Below are positions 382-27,791 of a stretch of DNA of 52,654 nucleotides, piece after piece. How positions within the stretch are numbered: the first letter of the stretch is position 1; each line of letters opens with the position of its first letter. Under the pieces are notes generated by a model, which saw only the letters and a list, made by a program, of their open reading frames with translations, did not search any database and was not told the origin of the DNA. A program made the position numbers and the translations under genes. The stretch is from an uncultured Lachnospiraceae bacterium (GTDB lineage: Bacteria > Bacillota > Clostridia > Lachnospirales > Lachnospiraceae): assembly GCA_902767015.1 (NCBI GenBank), contig CACXFV010000140.1, positions 1 to 52,654 of the forward strand, in the 5' to 3' direction.

Positions 382-1692
382 TTATCTCTTATAACAATCT
401 ATCGTTTTACCCGCTACTGTTGATGATACCGGTGTTCCCTTCGGATTTCTGGCAAGCGTAGTGTTATCACACATTCTGTTTCGCAATACCATAAGTGGAT
501 TCGGTGCCAGTTCATATCGGTAGTCCTTTCCTCTGTTTCTGATATACTGTTCAATCACCCTGTGGCTAGCCACACTATTGACATCATTATTCACAATATT
601 CTGATAATAGTAGAAATCTGCATTAGGCGGCAGTTCAAATAAAGATACTACTTTTTCCTCCTTCTGCGTATTTCCGGTTGTCGTCTTAATAATATTTCTC
701 ACATATTCTATATTAGGAGATAACTGCAAAATATCCGGAAATTCCCCGCAAGGAATCACCTGTTGCCAATCCTTATTTTCATATTTTTGCAATAATTCCT
801 TCGCCTTGTGAAGATGGGCAATCTCCTGAACAAGACATTCCTCCCATATTTTCTTAATTCGATTATCAGTCTCTGTCATGGCACAGGAATAATACAGATA
901 ACATTCTGTATATTCATGCATCAGCAAATCCTCTAACCATGTGGCTCTTGTATCTTTCAGACTCTCATATTGGCTGACATGCTCTTCCTCAATCATACCG
1001 ATTTCCTGATACAGTCTTCTTCCAATGTCTGACTTGCAGTACAACGGTGCCACATTCATATAATAATTCATCGTCTGCTGTTCCGCCGCTGTTATGATAT
1101 TAACATGAAGCTTTGTCTTGATATCCGCCGTTTTATTATCAATATAATCAAAGATACTGTCGTTTGGATGTCTGTGCTCTGAGATGGTTGGTCTTGCCGG
1201 CATAATCTCTGTATAGCCACCCACCAGTTTTTCAGGATACACATTATATTCCAGATTCAACAGATTAGAATACCTGTACAGATGATCAAAATCCTCTAAC
1301 AGAGCAAAATTGAGTGCATTCCTCACGTTACAGTCCGGTTCTTTTTGTGCCAGCACAGCGGTAAGGTCAACAGCAAGCTGTTCATATCCTATCGTATGCT
1401 CCAATATCGTCTCATCTTTAGGCTTTAAGCATGAAATCCTTTTCTGTTGCTGCTGCTCACTTCTCCTTACCATGGCAAGTTCACGGCGAAGCTCATTATT
1501 GGTACAATGTCTCGAAAAATTTCTTGAAAACCACTGTGCTTCAAATTCCGTTCCATTCATCAGAATAATTCTTGTCTTTGTATAGGCATCCACCGTATTT
1601 TTATTATATGGCTGCGGATACATCATATTCCAATCCATATAAATCTTATCGATTGGCATAGGTTTTTCTTCAAATGGATTAAAACTCTGCAT
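382..1692 (-). CDS. Ferritin-like di-iron-type protein, uncharacterised
   Basis: A 436-residue soluble protein without signal peptide that I cannot assign to a named family. The middle part looks helical and has the metal-ligand pattern of the ferritin-like superfamily: E204, E235-x-x-H238, E260/E263 and E290-x-x-H293. An earlier helix pair has E104 and D134-x-x-H137. This is the E / ExxH / E / ExxH order of rubrerythrin-type four-helix bundles, but the spacing is not that of a classical rubrerythrin and there is no rubredoxin CxxC centre. Start: ATG with AAGGAG upstream; the start codon lies in the arm of a stem-loop (separate entry). It follows prfA by 74 bases in the same direction. A role in iron or oxidative-stress chemistry is inference only. 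Confidence 0.6.
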   Translation of the reverse strand: MQSFNPFEEKPMPIDKIYMDWNMMYPQPYNKNTVDAYTKTRIILMNGTEFEAQWFSRNFSRHCTNNELRRELAMVRRSEQQQQKRISCLKPKDETILEHTIGYEQLAVDLTAVLAQKEPDCNVRNALNFALLEDFDHLYRYSNLLNLEYNVYPEKLVGGYTEIMPARPTISEHRHPNDSIFDYIDNKTADIKTKLHVNIITAAEQQTMNYYMNVAPLYCKSDIGRRLYQEIGMIEEEHVSQYESLKDTRATWLEDLLMHEYTECYLYYSCAMTETDNRIKKIWEECLVQEIAHLHKAKELLQKYENKDWQQVIPCGEFPDILQLSPNIEYVRNIIKTTTGNTQKEEKVVSLFELPPNADFYYYQNIVNNDVNSVASHRVIEQYIRNRGKDYRYELAPNPLMVLRNRMCDNTTLARNPKGTPVSSTVAGKTIDCYKR

Positions 1693-1736
1693 AAATACTC
1701 TCCTTGTATAGTTTTACCATATTATTTTATGCAGAG
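1685..1736 (-). promoter_or_regulatory. Inverted repeat sequestering the start codon of the ferritin-like gene
   Basis: Perfect 11-bp arms CTCTGCATAAA (1685-1695) and TTTATGCAGAG (1726-1736). On the minus-strand mRNA the 3' arm contains the ATG (1690-1692) and the loop contains the AAGGAG ribosome binding site. It could be a translational control hairpin or a DNA operator; which one cannot be decided from sequence. Confidence 0.5.
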
Positions 1737-1766
1737 AAACAATTTTGGTTCAGCACTTCGCAGGAA

Positions 1767-2843
1767 TCAGGCACTTTCATCAAGCTTACTGAGTTTAGCT
1801 GCCTGGTCTGCCGAGATACAGGCATCTAATATCTCCTGTATGTCCCCATTCATAATTTTATCCAGTTTATACAGGGTAAGACCAATTCTGTGATCTGTCA
1901 CTCTTCCCTGTGGAAAATTATACGTTCTAATCTTCTCTGAGCGGTCGCCGGTACCTATCTGACTTCTTCGCTGCTCCGCCTCCGCATCATGTGCCTTCTG
2001 ACATTCAATATCATACAGCTTTGACCGCAATAAAGCAAATGCCTTCGCTTTATTCTGAAGCTGAGACTTCTCCGTCTGACTATAGACAACAATCCCCGTA
2101 GGATAATGTGTGAGTCGAACTGCCGAATCCGTGGTGTTGACACATTGTCCGCCATTGCCTGATGCACGCATGACATCTATACGTATATCCTTCTCATCAA
2201 TCTGTACATCCACCTCTTCTGCTTCCGGAATTACCGCAACCGTAATCGTCGAGGTATGAATTCTTCCTCCCGATTCCGTCTCCGGTACCCTCTGCACTCT
2301 GTGTACTCCGGATTCATATTTCAGCACTGAATATGCTCCGTTTCCCGTCACCATAAATGTGACATTTTTCATGCCGCCAATTCCTATCTCCTCGCATTCC
2401 ATCAGCTCGACCTTCCACCTCTTCGTCTCGGCATAATGAACATACATACGATATATCTCAGCTGCAAACAACGCCGCTTCATCGCCGCCTGCACCTGCTC
2501 TGATCTCTACAATTACATTCTTGTCATCATTAGGATCCTTCGGCAGAAGCAATATCTTAATCTCTCTTTCCAACTCTTCAATGCGCGCCTTTGCGTCATT
2601 CAATTCCTCTTTCGCAAGTTCACGCATCTCCTCATCACTCTCCTCATCGAGAATCATCAGACTCTCATCAATCGTCTCCTTCTTAGACTTGTACTCTTTA
2701 TAGGCCTCTACGATAGGTGTTAAATCAGACTGCTCTTTCATAAGCTTTCTGAATCTTATCTGGTCATTAGCGATAGATGGATCATTCAATTCGAGCATCA
2801 ATTCCTCGTATCTTCTCAAAAGATCATCTAATTTATCAAACAT
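1767..2843 (-). CDS. prfA: Peptide chain release factor 1
   Basis: Class I release factor that reads UAA/UAG in the ribosomal A site and triggers peptidyl-tRNA hydrolysis. The 358-residue length is normal for RF1. The tripeptide anticodon region reads [14 protein letters not shown] (PxT motif, here PET, which separates RF1 from the SPF of RF2), and the catalytic GGQ occurs as [17 protein letters not shown] about residue 230. Its glutamine is the expected target of PrmC, encoded just upstream with a 36-base gap, so the two are probably co-transcribed. Start is ATG at 2843 preceded by AGGAGG seven bases upstream. Most family members have GAGGQH; the GNGGQC seen here keeps GGQ but varies the neighbours. 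Confidence 0.97.
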
Positions 2844-2879
2844 TTCTTTACCTCCTAGTATATCGAATATTAAGCTTCT

Positions 2880-3755
2880 TTACTTTTTACGCGCAATCAC
2901 TACTCTGTCCTTACCTGTTAAATCCTTGATAATCTGAATATCCTTATACCAGTTTTTGAACAAAATCTCTTCCACTGCCTCTGCCTGATCATATCCGATC
3001 TCAAAAATCAGACAGCCATCCTTCTTTAAATACTTATTGCTCTGTGAACTTATCCCTCTATAGAATTTAAGCCCATCCTCATCGCCATCCAATGCCATTC
3101 TCGGCTCAAAATTCTTTACCTCCGGCATCAGTGTGTCAATAACCTTAGAGTTAATATATGGCGGATTTGACACAATCATATCATACTTCTCATAATATCC
3201 CACTTTATCCTTGGCAAAATCCTCATATAAATCACTTCTGATAAATTTAATTTTATCAATATGATTCAAAACCGCATTTTCCTTGGCAATTTCCAATGCC
3301 TTTTCAGACAAATCCACCGCCGTCATATTAACATCACTACATGCCTTCGCTATGCTGATGGCGATACAGCCACTCCCGGTACACATATCCATAACCTCTA
3401 ATTGTGTCCCTTCCTTTCTGTAATCACTATCTAATATTCGCAATGCAGTCTCGACAAGCGTCTCTGTATCCTGTCTCGGAATAAGGACATTCTCATTTAC
3501 TTTAAAGGTAAGTCCCATAAATTCCCACTCGCCAATAATATACTGAAGCGGATAACGTGATTTTCTTTTTTCTATTGCTTCAAAATATGCCGTTTCCATG
3601 TCTTTCGGTACTTCTTCAAGCATTTTTGTAAAATAATCCACCTTAGAGACACAGCATATCTTCTCCAAAAGAATCCATGCATCATTATCAGCATTAGCAA
3701 TACCTGATTTGAATAATTTAATTTGTCCCTGCTTTACCATCTCTGTGTATTTCAT
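2880..3755 (-). CDS. prmC: Release factor glutamine methyltransferase
   Basis: SAM-dependent N5-glutamine methyltransferase (HemK/PrmC) that methylates the GGQ glutamine of release factors. Shown by an N-terminal helical domain, the SAM-binding DMCTGSGCIAISIA motif and the catalytic NPPY (VSNPPYINSKV) that binds the target amide. The start is set at 3755 because AAGGAG lies nine bases upstream; the open frame continues to a TTG at 3788, but that start has no proper ribosome binding site. The protein is 291 residues, normal for the family. A consensus promoter lies just upstream (3827-3855), so prmC-prfA has its own transcription start besides possible read-through from the DUF1385 gene. Confidence 0.95.
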   Translation of the reverse strand: MKYTEMVKQGQIKLFKSGIANADNDAWILLEKICCVSKVDYFTKMLEEVPKDMETAYFEAIEKRKSRYPLQYIIGEWEFMGLTFKVNENVLIPRQDTETLVETALRILDSDYRKEGTQLEVMDMCTGSGCIAISIAKACSDVNMTAVDLSEKALEIAKENAVLNHIDKIKFIRSDLYEDFAKDKVGYYEKYDMIVSNPPYINSKVIDTLMPEVKNFEPRMALDGDEDGLKFYRGISSQSNKYLKKDGCLIFEIGYDQAEAVEEILFKNWYKDIQIIKDLTGKDRVVIARKK

Positions 3756-3826
3756 AGATACCTGCTCCTTCATTCCCCCAGAACTCAACTTCGTGTGACT
3801 ATGAATGCGTTTTAGGTTAAATTGAT

Positions 3827-3855
3827 TTTATATTCACTCTTTTAGGAGGTGTCAA
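3827..3855 (-). promoter_or_regulatory. Sigma-A promoter for prmC-prfA
   Basis: On the minus strand TTGACA (3850-3855), a 17-base spacer and TATAAA (3827-3832), about 70 bases before the prmC start. The 3' end of the upstream gene has a small hairpin with ACTGTT/AACAGT arms. Confidence 0.75.
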
Positions 3856-3885
3856 TCAGCCACTGCTCCTTACTGTTACAAACAG

Positions 3886-4872
3886 TTACTTATCCTCATC
3901 ATAATGCTCCAGATAATCTCTCCAGTCAAAAACCGCCTCTACCGCTTTAATGGCAACCTCCGCCATCTCGGCATCAGGCTCCTTTGTGGTAAGATGCTGA
4001 AGAGCCAGTCCCGGTGCACTCACAATTTTGACAAAAAGTCCTTCATGACTGCCTGCAAATCTCAGAACTTCGTACGAAACACCTGCAATCACCGGTATCA
4101 GTAATAGTCTGACTACTACCTTAATGAGCGGATTCTGTACCGGTATCAGCATAAAAAACAGAATACTGATTGCCATCACTAAAAACAGAAAGCTTGTTCC
4201 GCATCTTTTGTGAAGTCTTGAACTTTTCAGTACATTCTCGACATTGAGTTCATTACCATGCTCTATACAATTTATGCACTTATGCTCTGCCCCATGATAC
4301 ATAAATGTTCTCTGGATATCCTCCATTCTGGATATCAGAACAATGTAACATATAAATATCAGCAGCCTTAAAGCACTTTCAATTAATGCAGTAACCGTAT
4401 AGGACTTAATATCAAATCTACTCTTAAAAAAATCCGATACGAGGCTCGGCAGCACTACAAACAGTCCCAAAGCAAGTACCACCGAAAAAATAACCGTTAC
4501 TGTCATTATAGCACTTTCTGACTTCTCTTTAAATGTATTATCTGCATTTTTCTCAACTTTTTTTATATCCTGATTATTAGGAATATCGTTCTCACTTACC
4601 TTAGCTTTGCCCTCTCCCTGCTCTGCCTCCTCATAAAACTGTGAAGAATACATAAGTGTGGACATCCCAATAATCAATGAATCCAGAAAGTTAAAAACCC
4701 CCCTGATAAAAGGAAGCTTCAATAACTTCTTTCCATCTGTAAGAGACTTATAATCTTTGACACAAACTTCTATTTCCTGATCCGGTTTTCTAACGGCAAT
4801 GGCATACTTGTCCTGATTCTTCATCATGATGCCCTCCAATACCGCCTGACCGCCTATTCCTGAACTTTTCAC
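3886..4872 (-). CDS. DUF1385 (YqhQ-like) membrane protein
   Basis: A 328-residue integral membrane protein of the DUF1385 family, function unknown. The N-terminus GIGGQAVLEGIMMK is the family signature. Hydrophobic segments lie at about residues 120-145, 160-180 and in a long pair at about 225-265. A conserved MYHGAEHKCINCIEHG with His and Cys residues sits in the middle, and RLHKRCGTSF follows. A charged insert (about residues 80-115) separates the N-terminal domain from the first membrane helix. The start codon is GTG at 4872 with GGGAGGT upstream. Position between rpmE and prmC is common in Clostridia. A strong terminator between rpmE and this gene suggests separate transcription. Confidence 0.88.
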   Translation of the reverse strand: MKSSGIGGQAVLEGIMMKNQDKYAIAVRKPDQEIEVCVKDYKSLTDGKKLLKLPFIRGVFNFLDSLIIGMSTLMYSSQFYEEAEQGEGKAKVSENDIPNNQDIKKVEKNADNTFKEKSESAIMTVTVIFSVVLALGLFVVLPSLVSDFFKSRFDIKSYTVTALIESALRLLIFICYIVLISRMEDIQRTFMYHGAEHKCINCIEHGNELNVENVLKSSRLHKRCGTSFLFLVMAISILFFMLIPVQNPLIKVVVRLLLIPVIAGVSYEVLRFAGSHEGLFVKIVSAPGLALQHLTTKEPDAEMAEVAIKAVEAVFDWRDYLEHYDEDK

Positions 4873-4953
4873 AGGTAATACCTCCCTTTAAAGCACACAC
4901 TGACAAATTCACCTGCTTCGATAGCAATAAGAAAATCTCCCTATTCTAAAGAA

Positions 4954-5004
4954 AGGCTGTCACAAACGGTTCCATCCTAAAACGGAACCTGCAAGTGACA
5001 GCCT
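4954..5004 (-). terminator. Intrinsic terminator after rpmE
   Basis: Arms AGGCTGTCAC (4954-4963) and GTGACAGCCT (4995-5004) are perfect, with an inner GGTTCC/GGAACC pair. The minus-strand transcript then reads TTTCTTTAG. It ends the rpmE transcript 14 bases after the stop codon. Confidence 0.85.
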
Positions 5005-24740: not shown

Positions 24741-26426
24741 TTATTCCTTCAAGCTGGTCACAACTCCCATGAAAATAGGAAGCTTATTCTGATAATCAAC
24801 AATGGCATAGATAAATGGTCTGTCTATATCAACGACCTTTTTCTCCGTAGAAGCAGCACTACCCGCGCGCACCTCCGCTGCCGTTGACGCTGCGGCATCC
24901 GTCCCTTGTTCATCGACATCCATATACGTATTTTGAAAAACTTTCCCAATATAAGGCAAAATGGCGCTGTCATTTACAAACAATTCCGAAAAATCTGCCT
25001 TTTCCGCCAAAAAAGCATTTTCCATCCCCATTTTTTTCAGTGCCTCACTAAAATCATATTTTCCTGTCACACTGAACTTAGGAATTGTAGCCTCCACCAC
25101 TATACCATAATTGTCCTGCATCATACTCAAAAAATGTTCTCCCGTCAGAGAAGCAATGTAATCAAAAATATCGACCTCCTCATTAGGAAGTATCGCAACA
25201 AAAAGATACCCCGATGTGTAGGGTTTGCAAAAACCGGTGGCATATTCATCCTCAATATAATACATCTCAACCGAGTGCATAAAATTGCCGCTTTCTTTTT
25301 CTCCGCGATAAGCATTAAATTCTCCCGCTACCGCATTCAGATACGGGTCTAACCACCGTCCGCTGAATAATACCGTATTGACCAGATATAGCACAGCTTC
25401 ATCACCGATTTCATCAATCATATTCCGGATGTAGCCATCCGTATTCTCACTAATCCAGTAATTGATATCCTCCTTTGTTGTCTCATCAAAAGGTGCTTCA
25501 AATACAGATGAATAATACCAATTTTTCACATCACTTAAAAATGTTTCTTTTACCTTGGCATCCTCATTATTCCGTATCCAGATGGAATCCGCCAGCTTAA
25601 TTCTGGATTTTTCATCATATTTGAGTTGATTCGTATAGGTGTTCAGATTCCGGTTGAGCTCTTCTATCTGCTGCCCTCCACCGAGAACCTTTTCCATCTG
25701 CTGCCGTGTATCCCCCGCTGCACCGTTGGCCGCCATCGATAGCACAAGCTGTGCAGAAAGTGGTGAAATACATATATTCTTCTTAACTTTTGCACATTCC
25801 TTAAATAACGCTATCGCAAAATCAGCACTGCTCTCCACAAATTCCTGTGACACCTCTGTTGTGAACTGCTGTGCATCCGGTGCATCATGTCTCTTCTCTG
25901 TTTCCGACTCCGGCAGCGTCTCAATATTTCTACTATCGCCTGTCGTCATCTCTGAGCCATCTGTCCCTACCTCTGTTTCCGCTTTGCCGATGGTTTCGTT
26001 TACCTCATTTGCACGAAATAATCCTGTAAGGTCAGTGGCATTACCTGACCACAACAACTTCTGTATACCATCCTCATTGTTATTTTTAATAATCATCATA
26101 CCCGGTTTCTCGCCATCTTCTCCCTCATAAGCTGTTTCGTGTTCAAGCTTCTTAAGCCTTCTCTCCTCATCACGTTCCCCCTGCTGCCTGTGGGCACAGA
26201 AGACCGACGCGGCACCTGCCATTAACAGCAGCAATACCACTGCAAATGCCGGTATAAAGCTTTTTCTATATCTGTAACCATTCTTTTCTTCTGCAGCCTT
26301 TTTTCTACTTTTTCTTTTCTTTCCATCCATCCTTTTGTCATCATAGGACAGTGCCTCTTCCACCAAATCCTCCTCTATATGATTGATTGCCTCAAAGAGC
26401 TTCTTGCCTTTTTCCTTCTGTTTCAT
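24741..26426 (-). CDS. Membrane-anchored serpin with anti-sigma-like cytoplasmic tail
   Basis: A 561-residue type II membrane protein. Residues 1-55 are a charged cytoplasmic tail (KKLFEAINHIEEDLVEEAL) like the N-termini of proteins paired with this class of sigma factor; 56-78 form one membrane helix; 79-195 are a Thr/Glu-rich extracellular linker; 195-561 are a full serpin. Serpin signs: NICISPLSAQLVLSMAANGA, LADSIWIRN, LVNTVLFSGRW, and the hinge DEQGTDAAASTAAEV (E506 as P17, G508 P15, T509 P14, small residues P12-P9), typical of inhibitory serpins. P1 is probably G522 or a neighbouring Ala/Ser, which suggests elastase- or subtilisin-like targets. The ATG overlaps the sigma factor stop by four bases. 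Confidence 0.88.
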   Translation of the reverse strand: MKQKEKGKKLFEAINHIEEDLVEEALSYDDKRMDGKKRKSRKKAAEEKNGYRYRKSFIPAFAVVLLLLMAGAASVFCAHRQQGERDEERRLKKLEHETAYEGEDGEKPGMMIIKNNNEDGIQKLLWSGNATDLTGLFRANEVNETIGKAETEVGTDGSEMTTGDSRNIETLPESETEKRHDAPDAQQFTTEVSQEFVESSADFAIALFKECAKVKKNICISPLSAQLVLSMAANGAAGDTRQQMEKVLGGGQQIEELNRNLNTYTNQLKYDEKSRIKLADSIWIRNNEDAKVKETFLSDVKNWYYSSVFEAPFDETTKEDINYWISENTDGYIRNMIDEIGDEAVLYLVNTVLFSGRWLDPYLNAVAGEFNAYRGEKESGNFMHSVEMYYIEDEYATGFCKPYTSGYLFVAILPNEEVDIFDYIASLTGEHFLSMMQDNYGIVVEATIPKFSVTGKYDFSEALKKMGMENAFLAEKADFSELFVNDSAILPYIGKVFQNTYMDVDEQGTDAAASTAAEVRAGSAASTEKKVVDIDRPFIYAIVDYQNKLPIFMGVVTSLKE

Positions 26427-26986
26427 ACGACAATTCCCCTTTCGCCAAGAAATTTTTTTAATTTTTTTCTGATTCTCGAAAGACGCATGGCAGCATTTCT
26501 TTCCGAAACGCCATATTCTACAGCAATATCTTTCACAGGGCACAATAGCCAGTACCTTTTCACAAACATGGTTCTGTCTTCATATTTAATCTCACGAAGA
26601 AATACTTCGATAGCCTCCGTCAATGCCTTCAGCTCTATCTCTGACTCCACAGTATTGCCATCAGTCACACATTCCTCCAACTCCTCTATGGATAGTTCGT
26701 ATTCCCATACTCCGCCCCGCTTTTGTGCCTGATGATAATGAAGGCGTTTGAGAGAAAGATTTTTTACAATTTTTAACAGATATGCACGTAGAGGTTTTGG
26801 GCGCTGTGGCGGAATCTTATTCCATATTCCGTAATAGGCATCATTGACACACTCACTGGCATCTTCGGTATTGTGTAATATATGATAAGACACCTGATGA
26901 CAAAGTTTTCCGTATTTCCCATCAAGCTCAGCAATGGCATTTTCTGACCTTTCAAAGAAAAGCTCTATAATCCTTTCGTCCTCCAT
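26423..26986 (-). CDS. ECF-type RNA polymerase sigma factor
   Basis: A 187-residue sigma-70 family factor of the ECF type. Region 2 runs over about 18-90 (NTEDASECVNDAYYGIWN, then LRAYLLKIVKNLSLKRL) and region 4 over about 125-180 (RTMFVKRYWLLCPVKDIAVEYGVSERNAAMRLSRIRKKLK), the latter being the -35-binding helix-turn-helix. The linker contains the KRGGVWEYEL and ELEECV signatures common in gut-Clostridia members of this class. The start is placed at 26986 (GGAAGG nine bases upstream); an in-frame ATG at 27004 precedes that site. It is coupled to the serpin gene by an ATGA overlap, the usual sigma/anti-sigma arrangement. A TTATCTG/CAGATAA hairpin lies at 27023-27043 in its leader. Confidence 0.9.
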   Translation of the reverse strand: MEDERIIELFFERSENAIAELDGKYGKLCHQVSYHILHNTEDASECVNDAYYGIWNKIPPQRPKPLRAYLLKIVKNLSLKRLHYHQAQKRGGVWEYELSIEELEECVTDGNTVESEIELKALTEAIEVFLREIKYEDRTMFVKRYWLLCPVKDIAVEYGVSERNAAMRLSRIRKKLKKFLGERGIVV

Positions 26987-27290: not shown

Positions 27291-27584
27291 TCAACCATGC
27301 AATCCTGACGACTGTCTGATCATATCCTCTACCACAATATCGTAAATTTCTCCTACGGAATTACAATACTCCAGAACCTTCCACGGTTCGTTTGTATGAA
27401 AATGAATCTTTACCAAATCTTCATCGCCGGTGGCAATTAATGAATTGCCCTCAATATGTCCCGTAATATAATCTGCAATCTCATCCTCATCAAGATTCTC
27501 ATCCCTGCGGTCTATGAGAAGCTGTGTATCGTAACGGTATGCAAACTGATCATCCTCTGCGTCAATACTATGAATTTCTTCCAT
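27291..27584 (-). CDS. Stand-alone FakA/YloV C-terminal-type domain
   Basis: A 97-residue protein matching the last domain of fatty-acid kinase FakA (YloV, DAK2-fusion family): DTQLLI near the start, then HIEGNSLIATGDEDLVKIHFHTNEPWKVLEYCNS with the typical GDSL/ELVKVHVHTN pattern, and a final GEIYDIVVEDM. The ATP-binding kinase domain is absent. Start ATG 27584 with AGGAGG eight bases upstream; a longer open frame to 27743 has no ribosome binding site. It is divergent to the HTH gene. It may act as a lone protein-protein or metal/lipid interaction module; this is inference. Confidence 0.8.
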   Translation of the reverse strand: MEEIHSIDAEDDQFAYRYDTQLLIDRRDENLDEDEIADYITGHIEGNSLIATGDEDLVKIHFHTNEPWKVLEYCNSVGEIYDIVVEDMIRQSSGLHG

Positions 27585-27791
27585 TGTCTTTTCCTCCTGA
27601 TTTTTTATGTTTACCCGAATATTATAACATAAAACAGACATATTGCATCTACTTTTTACAATATGTTGAAAAGTAACCTCTCCCCCATGAACATAATCCC
27701 CTGTTATTATATTTTGCAAAAAAAGAATAGAATTATCCCCCAAAATAGAGTATGATAGAAGGCATAGAATATGCAGACAGAGGGAATCATC

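Follow-up and report, generated by a model that had tools for sequence, protein, structure and literature searches.

RsiV, the lysozyme receptor of Bacillus subtilis and Clostridioides difficile, is a membrane anti-sigma factor that has a short cytoplasmic tail and holds an extracytoplasmic function (ECF) sigma factor. It binds the host enzyme, after which signal peptidase and then the site-2 protease RasP free the sigma factor (PMC9044953, PMC6066255). In the SigI/RsgI systems of Clostridium thermocellum, one anti-sigma family carries many interchangeable extracellular sensors, which bind polysaccharide and none of which is named as a serpin in the passages cited (PMC3413522, PMC12484212, PMC3990059). 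In the gut bacterium Bifidobacterium breve, protease induces a serpin by way of SerRK, with a feedback that depends on the serpin itself (PMC8012564, PMC7822027), the two helices of CnrY wrap the ECF sigma factor CnrH (PMC7406223), and the N-terminal tail of the serpin tengpin binds a patch near strand s1A and stabilizes the native state (PMC8233489, PMC5297747). Serpins are single-use inhibitors that change shape upon cleavage of their reactive loop (PMC5127057). Here we analyzed a 52,654-nucleotide stretch of DNA from an uncultured Lachnospiraceae bacterium (GenBank assembly GCA_902767015.1, contig CACXFV010000140.1, positions 1 to 52,654; hereafter the window), in which an ECF sigma factor gene is followed by a gene for a membrane protein that ends in a serpin domain. 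From sequence comparison we consider it rather probable that this pair encodes an ECF sigma factor and a transmembrane anti-sigma factor that senses through a serpin domain and would free the sigma factor upon protease attack. The relatives described below lend good support to its designation as an anti-sigma factor of the membrane that carries a serpin as sensor.

Like RsiV, the window pair combines an ECF sigma factor with a membrane protein that has a short and presumably cytoplasmic tail. It differs from RsiV in that the ectodomain is a serpin, a profile of the protein's own group recognizes the tail, and the enzyme bound would be a protease, in which case the mark left could be irreversible. 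By description it also resembles the metal-sensing CnrY/CnrH pair and other short anti-sigma factors, in which a short element holds an ECF sigma factor. The sigma and anti-sigma families of SigI/RsgI differ from those of the window, and SerRK/SerU is, unlike the window pair, a two-component system with the serpin as a separate protein. The nearest solved chain to the window serpin domain by sequence is tengpin (PDB 2pee, 2pef; E about 1e-83), on which we know of no sigma-binding tail, in a comparison that covered the protein chain.

The sigma protein passed the ECF profile (TIGR02937, 65.4 bits against a cut-off of 42.9) and gave no region 3 match in the profile scan, as expected of an ECF sigma factor. 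Read base by base, its gene overlaps the next one by ATGA, and the downstream frame encodes a tail, a helix, a linker and a serpin in that order, as the original prediction had proposed. The tail (residues 1-55 of 561) is basic, with 18 K/R and 12 D/E, and for its residues 9-27 the helical hydrophobic moment is 0.43, where shuffles average 0.20 (fraction 0.019). Scans against Pfam and NCBIfam gave the tail no match above cut-off. Beside the tail, hydropathy shows one strong hydrophobic stretch, within which all six top 19-residue hydrophobic windows of the protein begin. A charged 55-residue tail and one stretch fit for a membrane helix agree with the original prediction; the linker, given there as 115 residues, measured about 120. 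Serpin was the sole Pfam match of the protein at E up to 1, with no RsiV-type ectodomain, and the PF00079 alignment spans profile positions 2-369 of 370, indicating the complete serpin that had been proposed. In inhibitory serpins, members of inhibitor family I4, the hinge carries G at P15, T or S at P14 and small residues at P12-P9. The window hinge (E506-Q-G508-T509-D-A511-A-A513-S-T515) is canonical in this respect and contains the residues named beforehand (G508, T509, A511-A513). Counted from the hinge, P1 would fall at about G522, and the small residues around this candidate would point to elastase- or subtilisin-like target enzymes. The linker is a possible site-1 cleavage region, and an SVFCA motif standing where the predicted transmembrane helix ends is a tentative candidate for the cleavage site. 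The draft genome of the window encodes one M50 site-2 protease (208.8 bits) and no serpin match besides the window serpin; among nine genomes of the genus, the window genome alone had serpin matches. Coordinates are collected in the table.

Features of the sigma/serpin gene pair (window coordinates; residue numbers refer to the 561-aa protein)
Feature	Coordinates	Strand	Remarks
ECF sigma factor gene, 187 aa	26986..26423	minus	sigma regions 2 and 4
Membrane anti-sigma/serpin fusion gene, 561 aa (well supported as anti-sigma)	26426..24741	minus	tail, helix, linker and serpin
ATGA overlap of sigma stop and serpin-gene start	26423..26426	minus	base-level reading
Conserved tail helix, residues 6-25 (KGKKLFEAINHIEEDLVEEA)	26352..26411	minus	putative sigma-binding element; tail profile 17.4 bits
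Predicted single transmembrane helix, about residues 56-77	26196..26261	minus	hydropathy 2.16-2.49, windows starting at 56-61
Predicted extracellular linker, about residues 78-197 (about 120 residues)	25836..26195	minus	read from sequence
Serpin domain, residues 199-558	24753..25832	minus	PF00079, 267 bits
Reactive centre loop with inhibitory hinge, residues 506-535	24822..24911	minus	hinge sequence

Relatives were gathered as follows (loci carry L numbers). For the family set, serpins were searched over 397 genomes of the window's family, 140 of which had a match, and we took the 30 best matches together with listed frames able to hold a tail, a helix and a serpin (from about 448 aa upward, with some below this length); shorter frames were mostly omitted, so that counts from this set are lower bounds. 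The set comprised 131 distinct serpin open reading frames (ORFs), of which 129 were used for the tree and the statistics after removal of two fragments or duplicates. A loose lipobox pattern occurred in 84 of the 131, an overcount that also takes in the helix of some fused proteins. For the order set, a profile of the fused proteins was run over 392 genomes of the order (at least 178 with a match) and 20 regions were examined. Named loci are the best 80 of 277, titled Lachnospiraceae, Oscillospiraceae, Ruminococcus and others, mostly clostridial. A search for close named relatives of the window protein returned 57 pattern matches, none of them a relative.

Nine sister sigma genes besides the window's were found in the genus (L051-L059), along with two weaker matches (L060, L061). 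L060 was considered as a natural sigma/anti-sigma fusion and rejected, being a different sigma-like protein. Behind eight of the nine, at gaps of -11 to +63 bases, stands a gene whose membrane-protein product has a tail of similar kind and an ectodomain unmatched by the serpin query; behind the ninth (L053) stands a gene for a 66-aa protein that bears the tail in weak form. A tail profile was trained on 16 non-serpin proteins, namely these eight and eight from other family loci that all adjoin a separate serpin gene (L053 was excluded), and scored on the first 230 residues of the 129 family serpins with 5,160 shuffles as background. Sixteen serpins exceeded the best shuffle (7.3 bits), among them the window protein at 17.4 bits, which has its presumed cytoplasmic domain in common with other sigma-adjacent membrane proteins; the next scores were 2.6 bits (L085, with the motif clear by eye) and 0.8.

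Fourteen of the 16 profile-positive serpins, and two of the 113 profile-negative ones, are encoded directly behind a sigma gene (at least 50 bits; Fisher's exact test, p 7e-15, a test that ignores relatedness), an arrangement repeated as for transmembrane ECF anti-sigma factors. Both profile-positive exceptions have an altered neighborhood, with an intervening serpin gene in L102 and a broken sigma frame in L138; the two profile-negative serpins behind a sigma gene are L085 and the tail-less first serpin of L102. In all, at least 26 proteins carry the window-type tail on a serpin (17 from the family set, eight from the order set, L273-L280, and L227), which rules out an oddity unique to one genome. 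L279 contributes a second pair beside the one counted as L136, and L085, L274 and L278, which score under 4 bits, were counted as tailed by eye and by place. The original prediction called for a search for the same sigma/serpin pair in other Lachnospiraceae, and 23 of the 26 lie directly behind a sigma gene (partial in L085; in L071 its first part was found without a start codon). We also looked for the result that the original prediction named as refuting it, serpins with this tail but consistently without a neighboring sigma gene: besides L102, with its serpin in between, only L274 lacks the gene and only L138 has it broken. In L138 a 66-aa piece of the sigma gene is left (1579-1779, minus strand), through either an assembly error or decay to a pseudogene. 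By source, the 20 order regions hold eight fusions of the window type, one of another type (L281) and 11 regions without a recognized fused protein, and the 80 named loci hold L227, of the window type, together with L216 and L231, whose tails are of other types.

Co-divergence was assessed by Mantel tests on 14 fused pairs and on 34 pairs, made without L040, L053, L071, L085, L138 and L273-L280. In the fused pairs, sigma and tail distances correlated at r 0.59 (p 0.0002) and sigma and serpin distances at r 0.35 (p 0.003), whereas tail and serpin, though parts of one polypeptide, gave r 0.07 (p 0.28); over 34 pairs, the sigma-tail value was 0.39 (p 0.0002). Shared ancestry feeds such correlations, yet it would favor the tail-serpin value most, and a tail of about 20-30 residues makes the distances noisy. 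The divergence of the tail tracks the sigma gene, not the fused serpin.

A natural deletion bears on the same link. L273 and L274, both from one genus, occupy orthologous positions, with a recA-like and a recX-like gene (names assigned from sequence) ahead of a fused serpin. With the DNA aligned on both sides, L273 1951-2473 is missing from L274, and with it 523 of the sigma ORF's 570 bases. The deletion is clean and is seen at L274 2500-2544, between the recX-like gene and the fused serpin. While the two fused proteins are 77% identical, their tails are only 43% identical (9/21), against 72% for the next 100 residues and 80% for the rest, and the tail profile gives 0.9 bits for L274 against 23.2 bits for L273. 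Among six sigma-keeping pairs (three sharing members), the tail was better conserved than the serpin part in three: L276/L277 (76 versus 60%), L119/L121 (72 versus 51%) and L119/L131 (72 versus 50%). Decay of the tail after loss of the sigma gene in L274 is thus suggestive. Because a similar tail occurs on non-serpin proteins, co-diverges with the sigma factor and appears to have decayed where the sigma gene was deleted, the tail is well supported as an anti-sigma element, in line with the original prediction.

One locus departs from the usual partner. Ahead of the tailed serpin of L085, an ORF (1457-1927, minus strand) joins an XRE-type helix-turn-helix (HTH_3, 1.5e-16) to sigma region 4 (Sigma70_r4, 4.4e-13) without region 2. 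If this pair works, the tail must act without sigma region 2, which agrees with CnrY, whose first helix binds sigma region 4 (PMC7406223). The product, an uncommon combination of sigma factor and repressor, might nonetheless be bound by the anti-sigma tail.

Fusion of serpins to such tails may have arisen more than once. A tree built by a quick method (LG+G4) from the 129 serpin domains requires at least 11 state changes to place the 17 tailed members; starred branches, which deserve less trust in a tree of this kind, force seven of them. Even so, the tail label clusters more tightly than in 500 shuffles (mean 16.3 changes), and the tree does not tell tail gain from tail loss. Three other tail types were found on serpins encoded directly behind, and overlapping, other ECF sigma genes: L009 and L088/L216 (L088 being the same place as L216), L231, and L281. 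The window-tail profile does not pick up these tails, and their mutual unrelatedness was judged by eye. The L009 fusion (697-2856, minus strand) has about 300 extra residues behind its serpin, presumably BspA-type leucine-rich repeats.

Unfused rows consist of a sigma gene, a gene for a membrane protein of about 150-520 residues with a tail and a helix, and then a mostly lipoprotein-like serpin. In 24 of the 80 named loci (the best of 277), the 2 kb upstream of the serpin contain an ECF gene on the same strand, and in none do they contain one on the other strand; for the 2 kb downstream the counts are five and none, respectively; for the 55 named loci with a full 2 kb on both sides, the figures are 15 and 0 upstream and 5 and 0 downstream. 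Chance adjacency of sigma factor and tailed serpin is ruled out by the 14/16 versus 2/113 contrast and by this same-strand bias. In L227, L276, L277 and L278 the order is sigma, fused serpin, lipoprotein-like serpin. The reactive loops of sensor and operon-mate serpins, compared by eye for a shared target in L102, L227 and L276-L278, are only partly alike. L279 carries two sigma/fused-serpin pairs in tandem (fused serpins at 912-2489 and 3321-4958, minus strand), and neighboring runs of two or more serpin genes recur in the family, in L010, L026, L062, L064, L083, L096, L103 and L104.

The modules, their pairing and the tail-sigma link are supported by these observations, and from them we infer the orientation, sigma binding, protease trigger, proteolytic cascade and autoregulation of the following model. 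At rest, the amphipathic tail helix would hold the sigma factor at the membrane from inside the cell. A serine protease, either host elastase-like or a rival's subtilisin-like enzyme, would cut the reactive loop of the serpin, whereupon the cut loop would insert into sheet A and the protease would usually be trapped. The shape change of a serpin upon loop cleavage is irreversible. Such a one-way change, possibly pulling on the N-terminal linker, would expose the protein to site-1 cleavage near the membrane; because the linker too enters at the serpin N-terminus, loop insertion could be felt by it. The site-2 protease would act next and free the sigma factor, which would drive its own operon, so replacing the spent serpin, and probably also more serpins or surface-defence genes. 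Given SerRK of B. breve, restocking of spent serpin has a precedent in another phylum. Release of the sigma factor by protease attack on the serpin would fit both the anatomy of the protein and the known precedents. More tentatively, and at somewhat less than an even chance, we propose a one-shot membrane receptor in which loop cutting leads to transcription via the anti-sigma tail, counting inhibition events and replacing spent serpins, and at which several sigma/anti-sigma lineages arrived separately by fusing different tails.

Several observations weigh against this protease-sensing reading. Fusion is the minority state, with 17 window-type and two other-type proteins among the 129 family serpins, and in L282 and L283 a membrane helix holds the serpin although no neighboring sigma gene was found. 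The hinge also varies: P14 is C, V or A in 12 of the 17 fused serpins of the family set, and the second L279 serpin (912-2489) has lost the inhibitory hinge, making it possibly a sensor only; trapping may then not be universal, and some members may sense without inhibiting. Tail decay after sigma loss is a single case, two sigma-keeping pairs have slightly lower identity in the tail than in the serpin part (52 versus 59 and 57%), and L120/L126 keep their sigma genes with a tail identity of 35% versus 62% for the serpin part. The promoter search for autoregulation belongs here too. A motif derived from 16 upstream regions of non-fused relatives scored 194 in leave-one-out against 147-158 in four shuffled sets and did not generalize, only 3 of 17 held-out regions reaching p<0.05 (L102, L126, L142; test made without L201, L040 and L071) and the window's own upstream region giving p=0.18. 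Counts of dyads upstream of sigma genes brought out A+T-rich words only, and scans of the window for consensus sigma-70 promoters (7 versus 7.2 in shuffles) and terminators (2 versus 1.4) gave no excess. Upstream of the window sigma gene lies a 150-aa ORF (27291-27743, minus strand) that matches only the middle domain of the fatty acid kinase FakA and resembles a fragment of a longer gene. L282 (2636-4024, plus strand) and L283, from another family of the order, have a short N-terminus before the helix.

Other explanations share the same anatomy and differ mainly in what the serpin does. The tail may be an anti-sigma element and the serpin a cargo or effector under sigma control, with the sigma factor freed by some other membrane or linker signal or by protein amount. 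Because many loci have a separate serpin gene downstream, behind a separate anti-sigma-like gene, the serpin as a sigma target would be the wider pattern, and the fused serpin without a hinge in L279 fits as well. We nevertheless consider this unlikely, since serpins have been fused to anti-sigma tails repeatedly (11 changes, 7 forced, and four tail types by eye) and the same tail carries other ectodomains in the sister proteins, as sensors do. It is decidedly unlikely, too, that the serpin acts as a shield, inhibiting proteases that would cut the anti-sigma factor, so that the sigma factor is freed once the serpin copies are spent and the stalk carries the signal: the short linkers of some members speak against it, although long linkers in several members, extra free serpins in operons, which would raise the threshold, and the single-use nature of serpins (PMC5127057) would suit such a role.

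We see hardly any likelihood that the tail is not an anti-sigma element and that sigma factor and serpin are merely co-transcribed. The lack of a Pfam or NCBIfam match above cut-off for the tail leaves room for this, whereas the tails of the sister proteins, the co-divergence of sigma factor and tail, the decay in L274 and the profile adjacency statistics all oppose it. Finally, the P14 residues and the lost hinge of the second L279 protein would agree with a serpin fold that serves as a ligand receptor without protease trapping, like the hormone-carrying serpins, a ligand or cofactor then triggering the sigma factor. This appears very improbable: the window hinge (GTDAAAST) is canonical, L099, L071, L085 and L102 share T at P14, and V at P14 also occurs in an inhibitory human serpin, C1-inhibitor.

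Inhibition is what serpins are known for, with a further role as carriers in eukaryotes. A serpin anti-sigma factor was not found in print among the titles and abstract beginnings listed on serpin or protease inhibitor together with anti-sigma, ECF or sigma topics (the ECF classification of Casas-Pastor 2021 lay outside this scope), and passages of PMC3413522, PMC12484212, PMC3990059 and PMC10059941 report none. The original prediction spoke of a new type of signaling. A more fitting description is a new, proposed sensor added to signaling of an established type, for which RsiV and RsgI are the models.

If the protease-sensing reading is true, the irreversible shape change of a serpin would have a new use, in the sensing half of a transmembrane switch of bacteria, and the protein would offer a natural scaffold for protease-responsive gene switches. 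A tail module that no Pfam scan here named also gains a function open to testing. For gut clostridia, the pair would constitute a direct sensor of proteases, such as host elastase or the subtilisins of rivals, and would explain how a single-use inhibitor is restocked.

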